DNA from: Bradyrhizobium sp. CCBAU 53421
Lineage (GTDB): Bacteria; Pseudomonadota; Alphaproteobacteria; Rhizobiales; Xanthobacteraceae
Length of the DNA stretch: 64,000 nucleotides
NCBI RefSeq assembly: GCF_015291625.1
Contig: NZ_CP030047.1
Span: 2,232,001-2,296,000, forward strand
Direction: 5' to 3'
Both the position numbers and the translations under genes were made by a program. This document shows, piece by piece, positions 7,397-40,514 of the stretch. The notes beneath the pieces are model-generated. The model did no database searches. It was not told the origin of the DNA and saw nothing but the letters and a program-made list of their open reading frames with translations. Each line of letters opens with the position of its first letter. Within the stretch, counting starts at the first letter, position 1.

Positions 7397-7473
7397 CGGA
7401 GTGTGGCTCAGCCCGGTAGAGCACTGCGTTCGGGACGCAGGGGTCGCAGGTTCGAATCCTGCCACTCCGACCA
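7397..7473 (+). tRNA. tRNA-Pro(CGG)
   Basis: A complete cloverleaf of 77 nt: acceptor CGGAGTG (7397-7403) pairs with CACTCCG (7463-7469), followed by discriminator A and encoded CCA. The anticodon stem CTGCG/CGCAG encloses loop TTCGGGA with anticodon CGG at 7431-7433. The T-arm carries GGTTCGAATCC. The integrase gene 300 bp downstream makes its 3' end the likely attB of the element that follows. Confidence 0.95.
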
Positions 7474-30880: not shown

Positions 30881-33663
30881 ATGACGATCGGGATTACCGG
30901 ACCCGGCCGGAAGGTACCACGGCAGAGTGGCGTGGTCAGGCTGGTCGTTGCGGCCTTCGTCATCGCGATTTGCCTGATCCTGCTTTCGCTCGCGAGCGAC
31001 GTCCTGGTCGATTGGCTGTGGTTTTCCTCGATCGGCTACTTGCAGGTTTTTCTGACCGCGATCGGCGCCAAGGCGAGCGTCGTTTTCGCCGTCCTGGCAG
31101 CGACCGCCGTCGTCCTCGGGTTGAACGGCGTGCTGGCGGCGCGGTTTGCCATGCCGCAGCCGCGACAGAAGGCGGCCGCCCCGTGGCAGGTGGCCGGTGT
31201 TGCGCTGTCGCCCGATCCGTCCGCGATATTGCGCGAGCGACTGACCCGGCCGTGGTTCGTCGCGCTCGGTGCGGGTTTGCTCGCGGTGCCGGTCGCCGCG
31301 AGCGAAGCCGGCAACTGGAGCATCTTCCTGCAGTTTCTCTACCATGTGCCCTATGGCGCGGAGGATCCGCTCTACAACAAGGACATCGGCTTCTATCTTT
31401 TCGCGCTGCCCGCCTATCTCGCGATCAAGAACTGGATGCTGCTCGCCATCGTCCTCAGCGCGCTGTTTGCCGGCGCGATCTACTGGGCGCGCGGCGACAT
31501 CGAGTACGACCTTCACAGCCGATCGATCTCGCCGACCGCGATCGCGCATGGCTCGGCGCTGGTCGGCCTGCTGTTCGCGGTGAAGGCCTGGTCCTATGGG
31601 CTCGACCGCTATCTCCTGCTCTACGGCGACAATGGCGTCGTGGTCGGGGCGAGCTACACCGATGTTCATCTGGGGCTGCCGGCGCTGTGGCTGATGATCG
31701 GGCTCTCGATCGTCGCGGCGCTCGTCGCATGGGCCAACCTGCGGGTCCGCACCTGGCGGCTTCTTGCCGCTGCCTTCATCCTGGTCGGCACAGGTTCGGT
31801 CGTGCTGTCGAGCATCGTGCCTTCGCTGTTCCGGCACTTCGTCGTCAAGCCGACGGAGTTGCAGCTGGAGAAGCCCTACATCGAACGCAACATCGCGCTC
31901 ACGAGGCAGGCCTACAATCTCGACCGGATCGCAGCCAAGCCGTTTGCCGCCGAACAGCGGCTGACCTTCAAGACGCTGGAAGCGAACAAGGCGACCATCG
32001 ACAACATCCGGCTCTGGGACTGGCTGCCGCTGTCGAATACCTACGCGCAGCTGCAGGAGATCCGCACCTACTACAAATTCCACGATCTCGACGTCGATCG
32101 CTATTGGCTCGACGGCGCCTATCAGAGCGTGATGCTCTCGGCCCGCGAGCTGCGGGCCTCGCTGTTGCCCGCGAATGCCCAGACCTGGGTCAACCGCCAC
32201 GTGCTGTTCACGCACGGCAACGGCGCGGTGATGAGCCCGGTCACCCGCAAGAGCCCGGAAGGACTGCCGTTCTTCTATCTGCGCGATATTCCGCCGGTTG
32301 CCGACGGCGGTCCCAGGATCGACGAACCGCGCATCTATTTCGGCGAGGAGAGCGACGACTACGTCATCGTCAAGGCCAGCATCCCGGAGTTCGATTATCC
32401 GAAGGGGAAAGACAACGTCTATGCAGCCTATGACGGCAGCGGCGGCGTGCCGATCGGCGCATTGGGATGGCAAACGCTGTTCGCCTACTACTTCAACGAC
32501 GCGAACCTGGTGCTCTCGAGCTACATCACGGCCGACAGCCGGATCGTGATCCGGCGCAACATCACCGAACGGGTGCGCACGATCGCGCCGTTCCTCAGGC
32601 TCGATCATGATCCTTATCTCGTCATCAGCAACGGGCGAATGTTCTGGATGCAGGATGCCTACACCACGAGCTCCTATTTCCCCTCGGCGCAGCCGGTGCC
32701 GGAGCTCGATCTCAACTACATCAGGAATTCGGTGAAAGTCGTCGTCGATGCCTATAACGGGACGGTCGACTTTTATCTGATCGACCCGCGCGATCCCATT
32801 GCAGCGACCTACCAGCGTATCTTTCCGAGCCTGTTCAAGCCGTTCACGGCCATGCCGGCGGATTTGCAGAAGCACATCCGCTATCCGGAGGATCTGTTCC
32901 TGATTCAGGCGCGGCTGTATCAGACCTACCACATGGAGCAGGCCGAAACGTTCTACAACCGCAGGACTTCTGGCAGTTTCCGCGCCAGCCGGGCGGCGAC
33001 GGCACCTCGGTGATGACTCCCTATTACATCATCATGCGGCTGCCCGGCGAGCCGCAGGCCGAGTTCTTCCTGATGGTTCCGATGGTGCCGAGCCGTCGCG
33101 ACAACATGATCGCGTGGCTCGCGGCGCGTTGCGACGCGCCCGACTACGGCAAGCTGATCGTCTACGAATTCCCTAAGGACAAGCTGGTCTACGGGCCGTT
33201 TCAGATCGAGGCGAGGATCAACCAGAATACCGAGATCTCGCAGCAGCTCACGCTGTGGAATCAGATGGGCTCGCGGGTGATACGCGGCGCGAACCTCCTG
33301 GTGATCCCGATCGAGAACTCGATCCTTTATGTCTCGCCGCTCTATATGCGCGCCGAGCTTGGCCACCTGCCGGAGCTGAAGCGCGTGATCGCAGCCTACG
33401 GCGAGCATGTCGTGATGAAGGAGACGCTCGCCGACGCCCTGGCTGCGCTGTTCGCAGAGCCCGGTGCGATGCCGGCGGTTTCAAACCCAACGGAAACGGT
33501 GCCCCCTGCGGGCGGCGCGGCGAGCCCAGCGCAGCAGGCGCTCGATCGCTACAATCAGGCGGTGGAGCGATTGAAGGCCGGAGACTGGAAAGGGTTCGGC
33601 ACGCAGTTCGATGGCCTGCGCGAGCCGCTGGAGGAAATGAACCGACGCTCCGTCGGCCACTGA
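30881..33663 (+). pseudogene. UPF0182 membrane protein, single-base frameshift
   Basis: A UPF0182-family gene of about 925 codons. The N-terminal third has seven membrane segments (LVVAAFVIAICLILLSLASDVL onward); the rest is a large extracytoplasmic domain with ELDLNYIRNSVKVVVDAYNG, TVDFYLIDPRDPI and, after the break, YYIIMRLPGEPQAEFFLMVPMVPS. Frame changes at 32962-32964, where AACCGC-AG-GACTTCTGG lacks one base of the family's NRE/NRK-DFWQF. The downstream piece opens with a GTG at 33010. Function of the family is unknown. Either a fresh frameshift or a base-calling error. Confidence 0.85.
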
Positions 33664-33690
33664 AGGCGCGGGGGTGGGGGGCTAATGAGG

Positions 33691-33848
33691 CCCGGAATGC
33701 CCCGCCAGCAGCCTCGACCACACCAGTTCGGTGCCACAGCCCCGCGGGGACACCGTCCCCAGGCCCGTCACGACAATTCGACGCATGGTGCTCCTGTTGC
33801 GCCCTCGGGTGAGCCGGCTTTGCCGGGACGAGAGACTGCCCGGGCGTC
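33691..33848. repeat. direct repeat, copy B (truncated fabF 5' end)
   Basis: Matches 30497-30653. On the minus strand it encodes only the first 32 codons of a FabF ([20 protein letters not shown] onward from 33786), then reads into stop codons. It is therefore a gene fragment carried along with its leader. Confidence 0.85.
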
Positions 33849-34060
33849 TAGAGGATGAAACAAGGGGCGTTTCCTCTACAGAGCGCTAGCGGCTCCGGAA
33901 GTGCTAATTGTTCAAAAACAATCTCGCAAATAGTGCCATCGCTAGCACTCGGTGGTGGCGGATAGAGGTAGTATTGATCCGCTCTGCGTTGTTGGGCCTC
34001 GATGTTGAGATCAGAGCGTCCCTGCTGCTGGTAAGCCGATACGCGGATGTAGGTGATCAA
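33848..34060 (-). pseudogene. serine-recombinase (resolvase) N-terminal fragment
   Basis: The minus-strand frame begins ITYIRVSAYQQQGRSDLNIEAQQR, the start of a resolvase/invertase catalytic domain (Y-x-RVS with the nucleophilic Ser, QGRSxLxIEAQ), for about 26 residues (33983-34060). After that homology stops and the frame runs into the tRNA-like border. It is the wreck of a mobile-element recombinase at the island edge. Confidence 0.7.
33851..33888 (+). other. degenerate tRNA-Glu 3' end (att relic)
   Basis: GGATGAAACAAGGGGC, then TTTCCTCTACAGAGCGCTA, aligns with the tRNA-Glu(CTC) 3' end (GGCTGAAACAGGGG, TTCCCCTAGGGAGCGCCA) with gaps and about eight changes. It follows repeat B directly and marks the left border of the 34-39 kb island. 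Confidence 0.5.
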
Positions 34061-34431
34061 GGGGAGCGGCCGGGCGGTTGGGTTAAATAGAACGCCTCTC
34101 GGAATCCAGAGCTTCCGATTTGCATAACTAAGGTCGCACTTGTGCCCCTTGCGAGGGAGCTCTACATTCTACACCGTAGATTGCAGCGCTAGTCAGATTA
34201 TCTTTTTGGTTGGGGTAAGGGGTTGTCCGGTCTGCGTATTCCTTCCGGCTATGCGGTATTGGCGATAGTCGCTTTGGTTATCGGCACTCCGATGATTCTC
34301 CAGAATCGACAGCTTTTCCCTCAGCTGCTCAGTTTGCAGTTGCGGTGACGGTGCATTTAGCTCCTAGCGGGCAAATTATTGCACCGTCACCGTAATTCCC
34401 TGCAGCGATAGAGGATCCAAGGTGAGATCGG
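34061..34431. other. non-coding leader of the island
   Basis: 370 AT-richer bases without a gene. They hold the inverted repeat at 34343-34392 and the ribosome site AAGGTGAG before the gene at 34432. Confidence 0.5.
34343..34392. promoter_or_regulatory. 13-bp inverted repeat upstream of the kinase-PurZ-like gene
   Basis: CGGTGACGGTGCA (34343-34355) and TGCACCGTCACCG (34380-34392) are perfect inverted copies with 24 bases between, ending 39 bases before the start codon. No U-tract follows, so an operator or RNA leader structure is more likely than a terminator. Confidence 0.6.
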
Positions 34432-36063
34432 ATGAAGTACGTCATTGCAGTGTCGGGACCGGTCGCTGTTGGCAAGACCGCTCTAACCAAAGAAATCGAA
34501 CACCGTTTCGCGACACATCGTATCTCGACACGCCAGTTCCTGCTCGCGGAGGGCGCGAGCGACGACCGCGCCTCGTTGATCGAGAAGGGAAAGGAATTGG
34601 ACCAACTGACCGACGGCACTTGGGTGCGCGACAAGTGTGCTCCGATCGTCGCTCAGTATGGAGCGACCGTTGACGTCGTCCTAGTCGATGCCGTGCGAAC
34701 CGAGCGCCAAGTGCATCATCTGCGGCAGGCATACGGTCGCCGGTTCGTCCATATCCATCTCACAGCCAATCCTGACACGGTCAGGAAACGGTACGAGAGC
34801 CGGGCGGCGGTCAGCGATACGGTTGCTTACGACGTGGTGCGAGCCGACTCCACTGAGAGCGGGGTGTGGCAGCTTGACAAAATCGCTGATCGTGTCGTGG
34901 TCAACGAGCGTTGCGAGCCTCCGTCGCTGCTGGCGCTGGCTATCTCAGGGCTGAGCTTATTTCCGTTGAGTTCGATCCCGCTCGTCGACGTGATCATCAG
35001 CGCTCAGTACGGTAGCGAGGGAAAAGGCCAAATCTGCGCTTATCTTGCTGAAGACTATTCCTACTTGGTACGGGTCGGAGGCCCGAATGCCGGACATCAG
35101 GTTGCCGACCCGAGATACAACTACCGTCAACTGCCTTCGGGCACTGGCTCCAATCCAGCTGCCAAGATTCTGATCGCCGCCGGTTCTACCATCCAGCCCG
35201 ATCTAATCCTGAAGGAGATGAAGGATCTCGGCGTCGAGAAGCGCCGCATCATCATCGACGAACAGGCGTTAGTCATCGATCAATGGGACCGTGACTTCGA
35301 AGACAAGACGGGTGGTGTCGCAACTATCGGATCGACCAAGCAGGGCGCCGGTGCGGCTCTGGCGCGCAAGATCCTCAACCGGGGAAACACACCCGTCTTC
35401 GGCGGCCCTGTATGTCTCGCAAAGGATCATCCCGTTCTCCAACCCTATGTCGGTTCGGTTGCTCGCGAGCTTGAGGATGCTTACGCGGTTGGCGGCCGCG
35501 TGATGCTCGAAGGGACGCAAGGCACATGGCTAAGCCTGCACCATGGACAGTATCCCAACGTCACAGCGCGCGAAACGACGGCAGCGGGCTGTCTAGCCGA
35601 TGCCGGCATCGCGCCCGCCCGCGCAAGGCGTATCGTGATGGTGACCAGACGCTATCCGATCCGCGTGGGAGGTAAATCCGGCCCGATGGGCGTCGCCGAT
35701 CACACTGGCAAAGCCGAGGGCATCGAAATCGACTTCGAGACGGTCGCAGCACGCTCCGGATTGCCGATCGACGAAATCAAGCCAGCCGAACACGGCTCGG
35801 TCTCTCGAAACCTCCGTAGAATCGCGGAATTCGATTGGGAGCAAGTGCGTCGGTCGGCAGTTCTGAACGGCGCGACCGACGTCGCGCTGACTTTTTCTGA
35901 CTATATTGCAGCATCGAACAGGCAAGCGACGCGCTTCGAACAGTTGACGGATGAGACGCGAGCATTCATCGCCGAGCTTGAGCGCGTCACGAACGCTCCC
36001 GTTTCGTTGATTTCTACGCGCTTCGACCGCTTTGGGGTAATTGATCGCAGGAGCTGGCGTTGA
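34432..36063 (+). CDS. P-loop nucleotide kinase fused to PurZ-like adenylosuccinate synthetase
   Basis: 543 residues, two domains. Residues 1-170 are a P-loop kinase: Walker A GPVAVGKT (9-16), VVLVDAVRTERQ (Walker B-like, as in dNMP/dephospho-CoA kinases) and an Arg-rich lid (DTVRKRYESR). Residues about 185-543 are a PurA fold: QYGSEGKGQ (phosphate loop, 192-200), GGPNAGHQV, EGTQGTWLSLHHGQYPNVT and the ending STRFDRFG. PurA has GDEGKG with catalytic Asp; here it is Ser195, the change reported for phage PurZ, which uses dGMP to make the 2-aminoadenine precursor. The IMP-binding TTGRGIG block is altered (GSTKQGAGAA). ATG 34432 follows AAGGTGAG. It heads a pair with the DUF7002-like gene. A dGMP/GMP-dependent synthetase is inferred, not shown. 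Confidence 0.8.
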   Translation: MKYVIAVSGPVAVGKTALTKEIEHRFATHRISTRQFLLAEGASDDRASLIEKGKELDQLTDGTWVRDKCAPIVAQYGATVDVVLVDAVRTERQVHHLRQAYGRRFVHIHLTANPDTVRKRYESRAAVSDTVAYDVVRADSTESGVWQLDKIADRVVVNERCEPPSLLALAISGLSLFPLSSIPLVDVIISAQYGSEGKGQICAYLAEDYSYLVRVGGPNAGHQVADPRYNYRQLPSGTGSNPAAKILIAAGSTIQPDLILKEMKDLGVEKRRIIIDEQALVIDQWDRDFEDKTGGVATIGSTKQGAGAALARKILNRGNTPVFGGPVCLAKDHPVLQPYVGSVARELEDAYAVGGRVMLEGTQGTWLSLHHGQYPNVTARETTAAGCLADAGIAPARARRIVMVTRRYPIRVGGKSGPMGVADHTGKAEGIEIDFETVAARSGLPIDEIKPAEHGSVSRNLRRIAEFDWEQVRRSAVLNGATDVALTFSDYIAASNRQATRFEQLTDETRAFIAELERVTNAPVSLISTRFDRFGVIDRRSWR

Positions 36064-36749
36064 AAGAAGCGGACCTACTCGAGCAATTCCCGCGGCTCTG
36101 GCACATGGCGGAAGACGGCAGTTGGGACTCAATTAGGAAGCATGGCCTGTTGAGCACATCTAAATTGCTCGACCTGCACAAAGTAACTGGCGACGAACGC
36201 TTCGCCCTAGAATCCCAGAGACGACCGAAGTCGGTCAAGATCACCGCGAATGGCCGAGAAGTGGCCACAGTGCGCGACAACATACCGATGCGGGATTCGC
36301 AATTGGCCAAGTGCCTCGCGCCCAACATCACGCCCAAAGAATGGTTCGAACTCCTCAACAAGCGAGCGTTCTTCTGGCTTTCGCGCGATCGCTTGAGAAC
36401 GCTATTGAACGCCAAGGCCTATCGAGGCCGACCGCAAACGGTCCTCACGGTCGATACTGCAAAGCTGGTGAACGCCCACCGCGACCGAATCCAGTTGAGT
36501 CCGATCAACAGCGGAGCCACATTGTATAATCCTCAACCCCGCGGCCATGACACCTTCAAGAGCATCGCCGACTATCCATTCGACGAACGCAGAAAGACCC
36601 GCAAGATAATGGATAGCATCGCTGAACTCGTGGTGATCGACGGCGTCCCAGACGTCAAGAACCATCTTGTTGCGGTGCACGCCGTGGACAAGGGTGTTGC
36701 AACGGAGCTGTGGCGCTGTCCTGGAACGGCTGAGGATGATGGTCCTTAG
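36060..36749 (+). CDS. DUF7002-like protein, possible ADP-ribosyltransferase fold
   Basis: 229 residues starting with TTG inside the previous stop (TTGA overlap; GGAG upstream), so coupled to the kinase-PurZ gene. The opening LWHMAEDGSWDSIRKHGLLSTSKLLDL and later RAFFWLSRDRLRTLLNAKAY, VLTVDTAKLV and LSPINSGAT form the DUF7002 pattern. The H-x-A...I-x-x-x-GLLS start followed by a FFWLS strand recalls the first two strands of DarT/DUF4433-type ADP-ribosyltransferases, which modify DNA or nucleotides. That resemblance is by pattern only. No signal peptide. Confidence 0.6.
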   Translation: MKEADLLEQFPRLWHMAEDGSWDSIRKHGLLSTSKLLDLHKVTGDERFALESQRRPKSVKITANGREVATVRDNIPMRDSQLAKCLAPNITPKEWFELLNKRAFFWLSRDRLRTLLNAKAYRGRPQTVLTVDTAKLVNAHRDRIQLSPINSGATLYNPQPRGHDTFKSIADYPFDERRKTRKIMDSIAELVVIDGVPDVKNHLVAVHAVDKGVATELWRCPGTAEDDGP

Positions 36750-36751
36750 GG

Positions 36752-38128
36752 TCAGTTGGCGGAAGCCGGATCCGACGACGCGATGCGCGAAGGCCGGTTC
36801 ATCTTCCTCAACAAGTCGGCGAAGTGACTGGTGAGGCCGATCTCTCCTCGGATTCGAACTCCGACATCGTCCGGCAGCGAGTGAAGGAGCCGTCGCAGCT
36901 CTTCCAGACCTTTGGATACCTCGAACACTTCCCAACGGGATGCCTCGCCGGGAACTAGGGTCGCTGCCACGCTCGACGTGCCGCCGCGATGCAACTGCAC
37001 GATCCAAACCTTCGAACCATCATGAACCCACTCGAACCGTACGGGCCCGAGCTTGCGCATTGCGGAAAGGTACGTTTCGGCGACGTCCTCAAGGACAGAT
37101 TCCGGCATCCTCTCGGGGCTTTTCTTTCCGAGCATGAAGGCGTCGCCCTCGCCGGCAACGCCTTCAAGGATTGGCTTGCCCTCGCTGTCGGTGATCGCAG
37201 CGCCGGAGAATCTTGCGTGCACGGCCGCCTGCGATAGAACGGAGGAGATCGATGTGCCTTGAGGATCTTCGGCCGCGAGAAGGTCGAATGGGTCGAGCCA
37301 GCCTTTCGCGGTGGTGAACCGACCCGGCTCCTGCTCGCGAGGACACGTGCGTGTCCAAACCTCATGGGAGCCAGTGTCTTGGCCGAACGAGAAGGGTTTG
37401 ACCCGTCGAGAGATCACGGTGGTCCGCGGGACCCTGAGTCCCATCGCGTCCGCTATCATAAGGCCGAAGGCCTTGTCACCTATGTGTCGGCTGAACTTGT
37501 TCGGCCATGTCAATCTAGCCTGCGCCGGCGCGCGCGTCGATTTTTCATATTCCCACATCAACGTGTGGGTTCGTCGCCAGCCCCGGGGCTTCGGATGAAT
37601 ACTGAATTCGAGGCGTCCTCGGCCGGCATCGACTACTTCCGGCCGAAATCCGTAGACGGAGTTCAGAAGGGCGAGTCCCAAGTCGGTCGGCAGGGAAGCC
37701 GCGCCCTCCTTCTCGACGCAACGAGGTGTATCATCGGGCGCAAACTCGATCACGTCCCCTTGGATGACCCCGGAAACGCCCCCGTCGTTCACGTCAACGG
37801 TCTCGTTGGCTATGACGAACATCCCCTCCGAAAGAAGCCGCTCCAGCAGTGACGATGCCTCTTCGGACGATTTCAAGCCGTAGTGGAATTCGCGGCTCTG
37901 AGGGCTCTCGGGCGTGAAGCTTCGCAGGTTGATGCTGCGGTCCGAGCTCGAGGCGAGAAGCTCCACCAATGCGATGCGATTGTTGGCGAACCTATTGTTC
38001 GGATCGTAACCTGCTACGCGGCTGAACTGCTGCGCATTTTTGCCCGTATCAGGAGCGAAGCTCACGAACTGAGCGACGTTGCCGATGCGTGCGAGTTCGT
38101 CGAGCGATCGGTCCTTGCGAAAGGACAT
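36752..38128 (-). CDS. PEP/pyruvate-binding (PEP-synthase-like) protein, uncertain
   Basis: 458 residues, cytoplasmic. INLRSFTPESPQSREF, GMFVIANETVDVNDGGVSGVI and ending-region VRFEWVHDGSKVWIVQLHRGG resemble the ATP-grasp-like nucleotide-binding domain of PEP synthase/pyruvate phosphate dikinase, where VRSS, SGV and EWv.dg...lQ are the corresponding blocks. The phosphohistidine swivel domain is absent. It may activate or phosphorylate a small molecule or protein with ATP. It converges on the DUF7002 gene (2 bp between stops) and follows the HD gene (97 bp). GGGGGT precedes ATG 38128. Confidence 0.45.
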   Translation of the reverse strand: MSFRKDRSLDELARIGNVAQFVSFAPDTGKNAQQFSRVAGYDPNNRFANNRIALVELLASSSDRSINLRSFTPESPQSREFHYGLKSSEEASSLLERLLSEGMFVIANETVDVNDGGVSGVIQGDVIEFAPDDTPRCVEKEGAASLPTDLGLALLNSVYGFRPEVVDAGRGRLEFSIHPKPRGWRRTHTLMWEYEKSTRAPAQARLTWPNKFSRHIGDKAFGLMIADAMGLRVPRTTVISRRVKPFSFGQDTGSHEVWTRTCPREQEPGRFTTAKGWLDPFDLLAAEDPQGTSISSVLSQAAVHARFSGAAITDSEGKPILEGVAGEGDAFMLGKKSPERMPESVLEDVAETYLSAMRKLGPVRFEWVHDGSKVWIVQLHRGGTSSVAATLVPGEASRWEVFEVSKGLEELRRLLHSLPDDVGVRIRGEIGLTSHFADLLRKMNRPSRIASSDPASAN

Positions 38129-38225
38129 GTACTACCCCCGGAGATTGGAAATGCGCCATTTCCGCGTCCATGGCGTAGGCGAGGGATTCAGGAGAGTCCA
38201 GCAGATCGACCTCTTTTCCCCCTTT

Positions 38226-38843
38226 TCAACGCATTCCACTTCCGGGAGTAAAGGGGCTTGAAATCTCCGACGATTTGTCCCTTCGACGGTAGAGGGCGTC
38301 GAACCTCTGCAGGAATGCACGCTTGGCGTCGGTTGGAGAGAGGTTCCGGACGGTAATAGGAGCCGGATCGACGCGCTGTCCACGAATCCATCCGTCGGTG
38401 CCCTCCGGCATAATCTGCTTCTGCTCAGCGGCCAAGACCCTAAGGTCCGCTCTCTTCACTTCGGGCGGAAGCGGGTGGGTGATGCCAAAGCGATCGAAGA
38501 TCGCTCCTTCCACTTCCTTCTCGATCCTTTTAAATTCCGGCAACATCTGCTTGAGAGGACGCGTCACGTCACCAAGAAAAGCTTCCGCCGCATCGTGCAT
38601 CAGTGCCTCAAACTCGAAGCCCACCGCAGTCTCGCTGACGAGGAGGCTATGCTCCGCGACCGAGTAGAAGCTTCTGCACTGTCCGGCATACCGACATATG
38701 TGCGCCAAACCATGCGCGATGTCCTCGATGGTGAAGTCGCTTGCTTGAGGAGCGCAAAAGTCGAACCAAGCTCCACTTTGCAGCATGATGGTCGGTCCAA
38801 CCCCGACTTTCACCGCGACAACTCCGTTCTTCTTCCAAGCCAT
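38226..38843 (-). CDS. HD-domain phosphohydrolase, YfdR-like
   Basis: 205 residues from ATG 38843 (GGAGGG six bases upstream); a longer frame to 38927 is less likely. GAWFDFCAPQASDFTIEDIAHGLAHICRYAGQCRSFYSVAEHSLLVS and ALMHDAAEAFLGDVTRPLK give the H...HD...D metal site of HD nucleotidases; the order and spacing match prophage YfdR. The family removes phosphate from (deoxy)nucleotides; the phage DatZ dATPase that clears dATP in 2-aminoadenine phages is also an HD enzyme. Substrate here unproven. It is divergent from the XRE regulator. Confidence 0.75.
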   Translation of the reverse strand: MAWKKNGVVAVKVGVGPTIMLQSGAWFDFCAPQASDFTIEDIAHGLAHICRYAGQCRSFYSVAEHSLLVSETAVGFEFEALMHDAAEAFLGDVTRPLKQMLPEFKRIEKEVEGAIFDRFGITHPLPPEVKRADLRVLAAEQKQIMPEGTDGWIRGQRVDPAPITVRNLSPTDAKRAFLQRFDALYRRRDKSSEISSPFTPGSGMR

Positions 38844-38941
38844 TAGACCCTCCAATACTGGTTCCTTCGGTCCAAGTCCACTCAAGCGGTCGCGATCATC
38901 ATGCTTGAGGTTTTCGCTTGAAAACACGCGCTCATAGCATT

Positions 38942-38955
38942 ATGCAGATTTGCAT
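38942..38955. promoter_or_regulatory. palindrome ATGCAGATTTGCAT, copy 1 (candidate operator)
   Basis: ATGCA-GATT-TGCAT, at the start of the XRE gene and just upstream of the divergent HD gene start. The identical 14-mer recurs at 39119-39132. Confidence 0.55.
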
Positions 38956-39295
38956 GAAAATGACAAGCCAAGGGCAGAAATTATTCCGGAGGGACGTTGC
39001 CGCTCGGCTGTCCGCCAACGGTCTTACGATTTCTAGCATAGCGAGAAAATCAGGAGTTCATCAAAGTCAGGTTAGCCGCATTCTCGCTGGCAAGTTCACG
39101 ACCGTCAGTTCAAATGTTATGCAGATTTGCATGACTTTAGGATTGAAGGTTGACGACTATCTGATGCCTGTTGTCCCCTCGAACGCCGATCGCGAACGCA
39201 TACAGGAGGCGGCACTCTCGGCTTGGGACGGCTCTCCGGAAGATGCGCGCGCACTGAGTTCCCTTCTCCGAACTCTTTCCGGCTTTCGGAGGTAG
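38942..39295 (+). CDS. XRE-family HTH regulator
   Basis: About 117 residues with one HTH_3 domain: LFRRDVAARLSANGLTISSIARKSGVHQSQVSRILAGKFTTVSS, recognition helix VHQSQVSRIL. The C-terminal tail DYLMPVVPSN...LLRTLSGFRR is short. The start is uncertain: ATGs at 38942, 38954 and 38960 are in frame, and the first coincides with a palindrome that could be its operator. It is divergent from the HD gene, so it may control both halves of the island. Confidence 0.75.
   Translation: MQICMKMTSQGQKLFRRDVAARLSANGLTISSIARKSGVHQSQVSRILAGKFTTVSSNVMQICMTLGLKVDDYLMPVVPSNADRERIQEAALSAWDGSPEDARALSSLLRTLSGFRR
39119..39132. promoter_or_regulatory. palindrome ATGCAGATTTGCAT, copy 2 (inside XRE gene)
   Basis: Exact copy of 38942-38955, 177 bp away and in the same frame (both read MQICM). 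Two operator copies would allow looping autoregulation by the XRE protein. Confidence 0.5.
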
Positions 39296-39340
39296 TGTGT
39301 GGTGCCGTTACCGTGTTCATAGGCCGCCATGTCGCCGACA

Positions 39341-39607
39341 TCACTCCATCTCCCTCAGCAGCCTCCGCACGCCCCCCAACAACGCCCGTATCTCCCTCCG
39401 CTCCTCAATCGCTTCCCTGGTGAACAGGCCGTGCTTGCGCGCGTTCCGGTTTGCCTTCGGCGCGCCGGATCCCTGTGCGCCGCCGTGCATGCGGCAGCGC
39501 GTCTTGCCGTGCACCGCCGGCGCGCGGCAGGCGCCGCCGGGCCGGGTCTTGGCGCCGCAGCGCGGGCTCGCCCGCATCGCCCCGGTGGTTCTCACGTGAC
39601 CGCTCAT
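39341..39607 (-). CDS. HGGx-motif small protein (phage-associated type)
   Basis: 88 residues: CGAKTRPGGACRAPAVHGKTRCRMHGGAQGSGAPKANRNARKHGLFTREA. The four spaced Cys/His (C-x9-C, C-x3-H) and the HGGxxGSGAPxxNxNAxKHG run define a family frequent beside phage terminase genes and in rhizobial chromosomes. A zinc-binding or DNA-binding role is a guess. It overlaps the upstream gene by ATGA. Confidence 0.65.
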   Translation of the reverse strand: MSGHVRTTGAMRASPRCGAKTRPGGACRAPAVHGKTRCRMHGGAQGSGAPKANRNARKHGLFTREAIEERREIRALLGGVRRLLREME

Positions 39608-40263
39608 GCCTGAGCGTTTTGCCCGGCGTCGGCGGCATCGTGCCGTCGCCTGGCGTCCGCGGGCCTCAGTGCCCGCGCTGCGGCGGCCGGGGGCTGGTCG
39701 GAGACGATCACGCTCGCATGCTGGGTGACGTTGCCGACGATGGCGTTGCCGCCGTCCTCCACCTTCACGTTCTGCACAGTGATGGCGGGCTCGCGCTGGC
39801 TGCGGTAGCGGGTCAGCGCGTCGATCTGGGCGGGGAAGGTGCGGGTGAGCCGGCCGAGCGCCCGCGCGGCGCTGTCGTGCTGGGCGAGGTCGTCGGCATG
39901 CGCGAGGTGATGGGCGCAGCGCATCGCCATCACATGCACCGACACCATCTGCGCCACCAGCATGGCCTCGACGGAATCCCGCGGGCCAATGCTCTTCACC
40001 ATCGAGATCATGAAGGCGAGGTTGACCTCGCAGGGCTTGCCGCCGCTCACGCTGGCCTTGACCAGTTGCCGCAGGATGCCGTCCATCGCGTCGCGATCGG
40101 CGGCCCCCAGCGCGTTCGCCATCAGCGCTTCGCCGAGCTTCCGGTCGGGGTGGTCGATGGCGTATCCGCGCCGCGAGAGTTTTATCCGCGGCGTCGCGGT
40201 GGCCTGGCTCAGGCCGGGGGCGGCGGGCATCGTCGGCAAGGTGATGTCAGGTGCAGTCGTCAT
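39604..40263 (-). CDS. hypothetical protein, partner of the HGGx protein
   Basis: 219 residues from ATG 40263 (AAGGACC upstream; the frame is open further but without a site). The central block LGEALMANALGAADRDAMDGILRQLVKASVSGGKPCEVNLAFMISMVKSIGPRDSVEAMLVAQMV is helical; VQNVKVEDGGNAIVGNVTQ near the end is a beta motif. No domain I know. ATGA overlap with the HGGx gene shows co-translation. Confidence 0.6.
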   Translation of the reverse strand: MTTAPDITLPTMPAAPGLSQATATPRIKLSRRGYAIDHPDRKLGEALMANALGAADRDAMDGILRQLVKASVSGGKPCEVNLAFMISMVKSIGPRDSVEAMLVAQMVSVHVMAMRCAHHLAHADDLAQHDSAARALGRLTRTFPAQIDALTRYRSQREPAITVQNVKVEDGGNAIVGNVTQHASVIVSDQPPAAAARALRPADARRRHDAADAGQNAQA

Positions 40264-40405
40264 GTCGATGGTCCTTGGGGCGCGCGCGGCACGCGCGCAG
40301 GCGATCGCTCGCTGCGGGTGCCGGTACGATGTCGATGGTGGGGAGGGGTTTCGGGCGCAGGCGCAAACGTCGCACCCGTTGTTGCGGGCGAGGTGGCGCT
40401 TGCAC

Positions 40406-40514
40406 GATTTCGGAATATTGGAAAAATACCCCTGAGTTGCCCGACGTGTCAAGACGCGCTGTCGAGCGCCTGATACCGCCGGCTACTGTGCATGGGGTTG
40501 TTTTCGATATTTTG
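40406..40514. repeat. dispersed intergenic repeat (family R3), copy 2
   Basis: GATTTCGGAATATTGGAAAA to GGGGTTGTTTTCGATATTTTG, same orientation as 3582-3682. The central GAGTTGCCCGACGTGTCAAG is identical in both copies. Confidence 0.8.

Follow-up and report, generated by a model that had tools for sequence, protein, structure and literature searches.

The window, a stretch of 64,000 nucleotides from Bradyrhizobium sp. CCBAU 53421 (positions 2,232,001 to 2,296,000 of contig NZ_CP030047.1), contains an island at about 33,849-39,340, in which five open reading frames (ORFs), genes A to E, were read. Four of these genes, A to D, constitute a mobile cassette that is patchy in its distribution, is also borne by plasmids and recurs in many Alphaproteobacteria. 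On balance, we lean towards reading it as a bacterial defence cassette that moves horizontally and would alter the purine deoxynucleotide pool; both the catalysis and the defensive role are what we infer from the sequences. The features of the four genes are as follows.

34432..36063, + strand: gene A, with nucleotide-kinase-like and PurZ-type adenylosuccinate-synthetase domains, 543 aa (PF00709, E 1.8e-46; P-loop kinase domain)
34432..34974, + strand: kinase-like domain of A, residues 1-181, with Walker Lys15 and D86xxR89 (profile and residue comparison)
34984..36054, + strand: PurZ-type domain of A, residues 185-541 (profile, alignment and tree)
35014..35016, + strand: codon of Ser195, at the position of the catalytic Asp13 of PurA (alignment; meaning of the position from PMC12884076)
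36060..36749, + strand: gene B, DUF7002, predicted DarT1-like ADP-ribosyltransferase fold, 229 aa (DUF7002, E 1.9e-70; predicted fold)
36752..38128, - strand: gene C, ATP-grasp protein with a predicted dikinase-type (PPDK/rifampin phosphotransferase) nucleotide-binding domain, 458 aa (predicted fold)
38226..38927, - strand: gene D, HD phosphohydrolase of the deoxynucleoside monophosphate (dNMP) phosphatase type, 233 aa as called (PHROG dNMP-phosphatase family, E 4.8e-65)

The recurrence of the cassette was evaluated by one-gene searches. The A-seeded set comprised 22 loci, namely 13 genome loci, 8 plasmids (at least 80% coverage) and 1 viral contig; L013, which is cut by a contig end, was retained among them, and short duplicates or own copies (L014-L016, L027-L043 and L054-L060) were not counted as loci. 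B was found next to A in all 22, and both C and D were present in 15 (L001-L006, L012, L017-L024). Searches seeded with the other genes gave related pictures. Of 385 genomes sampled from the class, 4 had C, and of 397 sampled from the order, 8 did; both counts include the own genome. Four of the nine strong C matches besides the own one (G160, G325, G418 and G741) were accompanied by A, B and D; a weak C match in G649 (E 5.9e-4) was not counted as strong. At the protein level C had 2147 matches, of which the best 120 were listed. B was found in 11 of the 385 genomes; among the 10 besides the own genome, one of which (G077, a weak match) was not fetched, two carried A, C and D and two carried A with a further gene, c4. 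In a phylum sample of 299 genomes, four strong A matches were detected besides the own one, and those in G418 and G325 had B, C and D. C was also present in 13 plasmids, including all 8 with full-length A, and all 8 of these carried the four genes. The synteny of these four genes across many other genomes shows that the set is not a chance assembly. The initial annotation had proposed five genes acting together and had allowed that their homologues might rarely co-occur. Its composition stood for A to D, with B in 22/22 and C and D in 15/22 of the A-seeded loci; it did not stand for the XRE regulator (gene E), which accompanied 3 of the 15 A-seeded four-gene loci, and pairs of the genes also occurred apart. 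The cassette was adjoined in five loci (L006, L012, L019, L020 and L021) by a metallophosphoesterase gene carrying a PUA-like domain; four of the five also had a second gene, of unassigned function.

The ligase domain of A is PurZ-type, as judged from residues, loop and tree. In PurA, Asp13 is 99% conserved, and Ser occupies this position in all 147 phage PurZ proteins (PMC12884076). Ser was found at the Asp13 position in 120/120 A sequences (the best 120 of 2074 matches, the window protein included), as well as in 43/43 aligned A rows and in all 10 phage proteins of the same alignment; L048, in which A was matched in two pieces, was excluded from the residue alignment. The genome's own separate PurA and the PurA-like enzyme of locus L025 both kept Asp. 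The loop at the 'TRVG' position of PurA read PIRVGGxSG in A, which is phage-like, compared with TRVGxGPF in PurA. In the tree, the A family formed one clade (100/99), separate from PurA (100/99). The possibility that A is a housekeeping PurA or a broken copy was ruled out by Ser195, the tree and the separate PurA in the genome. The initial annotation had considered that the PurA-like domain might group with housekeeping PurA, and the PurZ-type Ser, the loop and the own clade set it apart. A published tree with at most two prokaryotic sequences per phylum placed four cellular members in the PurZ group, all of them archaeal (PMC12884076, 2026). The N-terminal domain of A was adenylate-kinase-like by profile comparison; Lys15, D86 and R89 were kept wherever aligned (113 and 117 of the best 120 of 2074 sequences), and weak matches to antiphage dCTP-deaminase-type models were also obtained for this domain.

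The predicted fold of B matched the DNA ADP-ribosyltransferase (ART) DarT1, which upheld an earlier comparison of B with DarT. E189 of B was invariant in 120/120 relatives (the best 120 of 561 matches) and may be catalytic. At the sequence level B showed no relation to DarT, Pfam returning DUF7002 and one weak unrelated match, and the B profile retrieved no PDB chain at E 1. In L083, the kinase genes are preceded by a gene that by eye suggested an ART; comparing its profile with that of B and searching PDB gave no match, and it is not claimed as an ART.

D carried the metal-binding residues of an HD hydrolase: H93, H111 and D161 were present in 21/21 rows and D112 in 20/21 (Glu in L026). Of the earlier description of D as a YfdR-like HD hydrolase, the HD type was confirmed, and the PHROG dNMP-phosphatase family matched; the match to Pfam YfbR-like PF12917 reached 24.8 bits, below the cut-off of 25.9. 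Alignments of D with its relatives begin at about residue 13-37, in most cases 26-37, so that its true start may be the ATG at 38843. C had been called PEP-synthase-like (PEP, phosphoenolpyruvate). The predicted fold, a dikinase-type ATP-grasp, agreed with this name, and the sequence did not: no family match was obtained in Pfam, NCBIfam, PADLOC or PHROGs at E 1, and comparison with PDB by sequence gave nothing credible. The fold matches centred on residues 208-386 and left the other dikinase domains, such as those for phosphohistidine and PEP/pyruvate, uncovered, though residues 1-205 were not modelled alone. C differs from PPDK, PEP synthase and rifampin phosphotransferase in its length of 458 aa, in having no sequence-level match and in the remaining dikinase domains being uncovered.

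To characterize the setting of the homologues, neighbouring ORFs were scanned with PADLOC models (E 1e-10). From the 193 ORFs neighbouring 28 A-bearing entries, 110 were drawn at random; for comparison, 110 controls were drawn likewise from 227 ORFs in 20 arbitrary regions, which belonged to the own genome and to eight of the others. Most control regions share contigs with C or A loci, at other positions. The 28 entries included L026, with a short PurZ-type gene only, and L054, which duplicates L061 and contributed none of the 110. The neighbours matched 54 families, and the 25 listed included HerA, AbiEii, type I and type IIG restriction enzymes, BilC, KwaB, capP, PbeA, mad3 and two candidate-defence models. 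The controls matched 37 families, the 25 listed being mad3, mad6, mad8, PD-T4-6, MkoA and one kinase model. These results supported, in qualitative terms, a defence neighbourhood of the cassette, as the initial annotation had supposed.

A mechanism can be proposed for the cassette. The PurZ-type domain of A would join aspartate to deoxyguanosine monophosphate (dGMP), yielding N6-succino-2-amino-dAMP, which host PurB would turn into the 2-aminoadenine (Z) deoxynucleotide. The kinase-like domain of A may phosphorylate that product or sense the pool, and D might dephosphorylate competing dNMPs. B would be an ADP-ribosyltransferase arm targeting nucleic acid or a nucleotide. C might be a control or accessory part, ATP-grasp phosphotransferase-like in nature, a role suggested by its also being found beside dGTPases. 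Upon infection, the nucleotide pool would be poisoned or drained and phage DNA synthesis blocked, perhaps as abortive infection. Toxicity of the phage Z-cluster to E. coli has been reported (PMC8342488), in keeping with the cassette acting in a toxin-like way. The initial annotation had the island sensing or altering purine nucleotides upon infection, and this stays a proposal.

Several observations weigh against this reading. The midpoint-rooted tree fixes no branching order of the A clade relative to phage PurZ and PurZ0, and A scored 187.3 bits, below the curated NCBIfam PurZ cut-off of 300; for these two reasons we use the label PurZ-type rather than PurZ. The C-terminal domain of A was nearest to archaeal PurA (5k7x, 3.2e-48) and next to phage S-2L PurZ (7odx, 3.3e-32), and D matched general dNMP phosphatases better (E 4.8e-65) than DatZ (4.2e-7). 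The gene set was also not complete everywhere. In 6 of the 22 A-seeded loci (L007-L011 and L088), an upstream c4-related gene was present and C and D were absent; c4-type genes carry peptidase-M78 and macro domains, according to the two members scanned. Five of the 10 other B-bearing genomes had no detectable A (L049-L053). Among the A matches of the phylum sample, G616 and G974 lacked B, C and D, which were likewise undetected at the remoter kinase-PurZ loci, with the fusions of G616 and G913 and the split genes of G974 and G817. C also occurred without A, B and D, so that the four genes need not be one machine: four strong C matches were accompanied by dGTPase (G407, G619, G628 and G682), and one (G028) had neither dGTPase nor A, B and D. 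The XRE gene, with 3 of 15 four-gene loci, was ruled out as a member of the system. Finally, the neighbour scan was a sample in which families and not genes were counted, and mad3 was found in both sets.

Some of these observations bear on the possibility that two separate defence units travel together, A with B (ligase and ADP-ribosyltransferase) and C with D (ATP-grasp and HD), which we regard as unlikely, though worth serious consideration. It would account for the six A-seeded loci having A, B and the c4-type gene without C and D, and for C being accompanied by dGTPase, and not by A, B and D, in two plasmids (annotated dgt; anti-phage dGTPase) as well as in 4/9 strong C-seeded genomes. D also switches side and strand between loci, lying next to A in L006, L012, L021-L024, L044 and L045 and next to C elsewhere. 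However, D without C was seen solely in L026, and both accompanied A and B in 15/22 A-seeded loci and 4/9 C-seeded genomes; the mobility of D itself speaks against a fixed C-D unit. Among the remaining C-bearing plasmids, five in all, one had an AAA ATPase with a DUF4406 gene and one an AAA ATPase with a DUF4406-C fusion; the fifth, H65, of the same species as H64, was not fetched.

PurZ-type genes were also found in other bacterial arrangements. L136 (6991-9241) has a separate kinase gene followed by a kinase-PurZ fusion, and L138 (4690-6683) has the same arrangement in an apparently broken copy. An RNase H-DUF429-kinase gene is found in L135 (6096-10853) and L137 (3708-9719) together with a short PurZ-type gene and dCTP-deaminase/dUTPase-like genes; L135 has a deoxynucleoside kinase in addition. 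B, C and D were not detectable in L135-L138. In L026, a D-related HD gene occurs with a short gene of PurZ type and with one that weakly resembles dCTP-deaminase genes. In phages, dutZ was present in all 98 PurZ0 genomes, and HD (DatZ) and Dut-like (DutZ) proteins are the clearing enzymes of Z phages (PMC12884076); the dCTP-deaminase/dUTPase-like partners in L135 and L137 recall DutZ of the PurZ0 phages. A bolder and tentative extension, which we hold to be possible but doubtful, is that 2-aminoadenine chemistry serves as an immune weapon. Upon infection, dGMP would then be turned into Z nucleotides, and the adenine nucleotides competing with them removed, by several bacterial PurZ-type cassettes, namely the kinase-PurZ fusion with HD and ART-fold proteins, the RNase H-DUF429-kinase with short PurZ and dCTP-deaminase/dUTPase-like proteins, and the kinase with kinase-PurZ. 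Phage DNA made with Z, or stalled on it, would be acted on by the DarT1-like enzyme, and C might also serve a parallel guanine-aimed module of dGTPase, QueC and deoxyribosyltransferase.

Self-marking offers another explanation, in which the cell's own DNA is partly 2-aminoadenine and B attacks DNA without it, following restriction-modification logic. The parallel of the PurZ-type ligase and HD hydrolase with the phage Z cluster and the resemblance of B to a DNA-modifying enzyme are consistent with it, but no Z-selective polymerase turned up, though none was specifically sought, and partial Z substitution is reported to be toxic in E. coli (PMC8342488). We consider self-marking improbable.

The PurZ-type and HD genes might also belong to a small-molecule pathway. 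A cluster on a Rhizobium leguminosarum plasmid (L025) holds FolE, PurA-like, PurB, QueE, IMP dehydrogenase, nitrile hydratase and QueC genes, which we take to resemble a toyocamycin-type deazapurine pathway. By analogy with a PurA-like enzyme in such a cluster, and given the resemblance of C to ATP-grasp and phosphotransferase enzymes, A, C and D could produce an antibiotic or signal in the form of a modified purine nucleoside or nucleotide. The L025 enzyme, however, keeps Asp and groups with PurA, no additional biosynthetic or export gene was common to the four-gene loci among the clusters found, and the sampled neighbours match defence models; the small-molecule explanation thus seems to us to have little chance of being right. 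That the cassette is cargo left in prophages or plasmids from Z-phage metabolism, without an immune role, is highly improbable: PurZ-type and HD genes are typical of phages and one A relative lies on an IMG/VR viral contig (L088), but none of 50,697 phage records covered 80% of A or matched C, the A family forms its own clade, and eight plasmids carry all four genes. In L088 the arrangement is c4-A-B, close to that of L011.

A defence cassette acting on the purine deoxynucleotide pool, the reading we prefer, has both likenesses to and differences from known systems. AvcD-type dCTP deaminases and antiphage dGTPases act on the nucleotide pool. The cassette likewise encodes nucleotide-pool enzymes, the kinase-like domain of A weakly matches dCTP-deaminase-type models and C lies beside dGTPases elsewhere; unlike these systems, it has a purine ligase instead of a deaminase or triphosphohydrolase, and four genes. 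DarTG consists of the DarT toxin with a macro-domain partner. B has a DarT1-like predicted fold, and the c4 arrangement adds a macro-domain gene beside A and B; in contrast to DarTG, B has no detectable DarT sequence match, the cassette of the window is without a macro-domain gene, and a PurZ-type ligase is linked. To our knowledge, Clover has no PurZ-type ligase or ART. The cassette shares with Clover a deoxynucleotide-pool effector in an antiphage locus, whereas its partner genes differ (PMC12265719). With the phage Z-clusters (PurZ, DatZ and MazZ; PurZ0 with DutZ and DmtZ), it has in common Ser in place of Asp13 and the same loop motif (PMC8342488, PMC12884076), an HD hydrolase of the superfamily that contains DatZ, and dUTPase-like partners in the related bacterial loci. 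It departs from them in being bacterial, with a kinase-fused ligase and additional ART-fold and ATP-grasp proteins, and in A forming its own clade below the curated PurZ cut-off; MazZ or a Z-selective polymerase was not seen among the cassette neighbours, the polymerase not having been specifically sought.

In the open-access PMC literature, the gene set was not described among the matches listed, and further matching papers may mention it; no paper under the name DUF7002 was retrieved there. The DefensePredictor main text does not contain 'adenylosuccinate', 'PurA' or 'PurZ'. Enzymes that make 2-aminoadenine are known from phages, and here PurZ-type enzymes occur in bacteria, in mobile cassettes among defence genes. 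If the proposal is true, bacteria would have turned phage 2-aminoadenine chemistry against phages, and purine conversion would join the known pool-attacking defences. DUF7002 gains a predicted fold and a testable function, and C points to a part common to several nucleotide-pool modules.

The neighbours of C were varied. C adjoined dGTPase in six loci (L063, L064, L065, L066, L075 and L076); in all of these except L066, a nucleoside-deoxyribosyltransferase gene and a QueC-like gene were nearby. PfkB accompanied the deoxyribosyltransferase (Pfam) in L063 and L075, and L076 additionally had an Mrr-type restriction enzyme. PfkB-deoxyribosyltransferase has been found in about 89% of the neighbourhoods of one QueC cluster (PMC13329287), and the word 'dGTPase' is absent from the main text of that paper. 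A 656-aa frame at L073:7377-9347 fuses DUF4406, at cut-off score, to C and lies next to an AAA ATPase; in L074, DUF4406, C and the AAA ATPase are separate genes.

The remaining features of the island and its border are as follows.

38918..39295, + strand: gene E, XRE/helix-turn-helix (HTH) regulator, outside the conserved core (HTH match; divergent from D)
38942..38955, no strand: operator-like ATGCAGATTTGCAT, copy 1, near the start of E (repeat search, comparison with L002)
39119..39132, no strand: operator-like ATGCAGATTTGCAT, copy 2, within E, 177 bp further (repeat search, comparison with L002)
33690..33848, no strand: left-border relic, 5' end and upstream of a ketoacyl-synthase (fabF-like) gene (BLASTN to L125 and L127; gene read in L127)
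33848..34060, - strand: 70-aa ORF (no Pfam match at E 0.01; an earlier resolvase-remnant label unconfirmed)

Of the loci examined, only three carried E: L002, L006 and L012. The ATGCAGATTTGCAT 14-mer sits in an 18-bp exact repeat. In L002, whose E is 39% identical, the motif recurs at equal spacing with one base changed in copy 2, and the motif pattern was not found in L006 and L012, both with E. The repeats are a candidate autoregulatory operator of E.

The host genome is a single contig of 9.26 Mb, and the nearest named relatives of the island proteins, among the matches listed, are from Bradyrhizobium. By BLASTN, the island was missing from two close relatives: against these same-genus genomes without A-E, homology ended on the left at 33848 and 33797 and resumed at 39341 and 39340, which bears out the island coordinates of the initial annotation. 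The G+C content of the island was about 58-61%, compared with 62-70% immediately outside (2-kb windows). The site that holds the island is a variable insertion site, because in one relative the same interval carries other genes, an HNH protein among them (G918; L127:1823-7250). The stretch 33690-33848, a second copy of the fabF-like 5' region, is a recombination relic, judging by this duplication. The coordinates confirmed the coupled starts of A and B (TTGA overlap), the 2-bp gap at which B and C converge and the divergent regulator, all of which had been noticed at the outset. A tRNA-like border, also proposed then, was not recovered: ARAGORN placed the sole transfer RNA (tRNA) of the window at 7397, and Rfam was empty across 33000-40500. 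To the left of the relic, 30881-33663 holds two same-strand ORFs of 710 and 217 aa with a 4-bp overlap, possibly one split gene, and similarity to the relatives is continuous across both.

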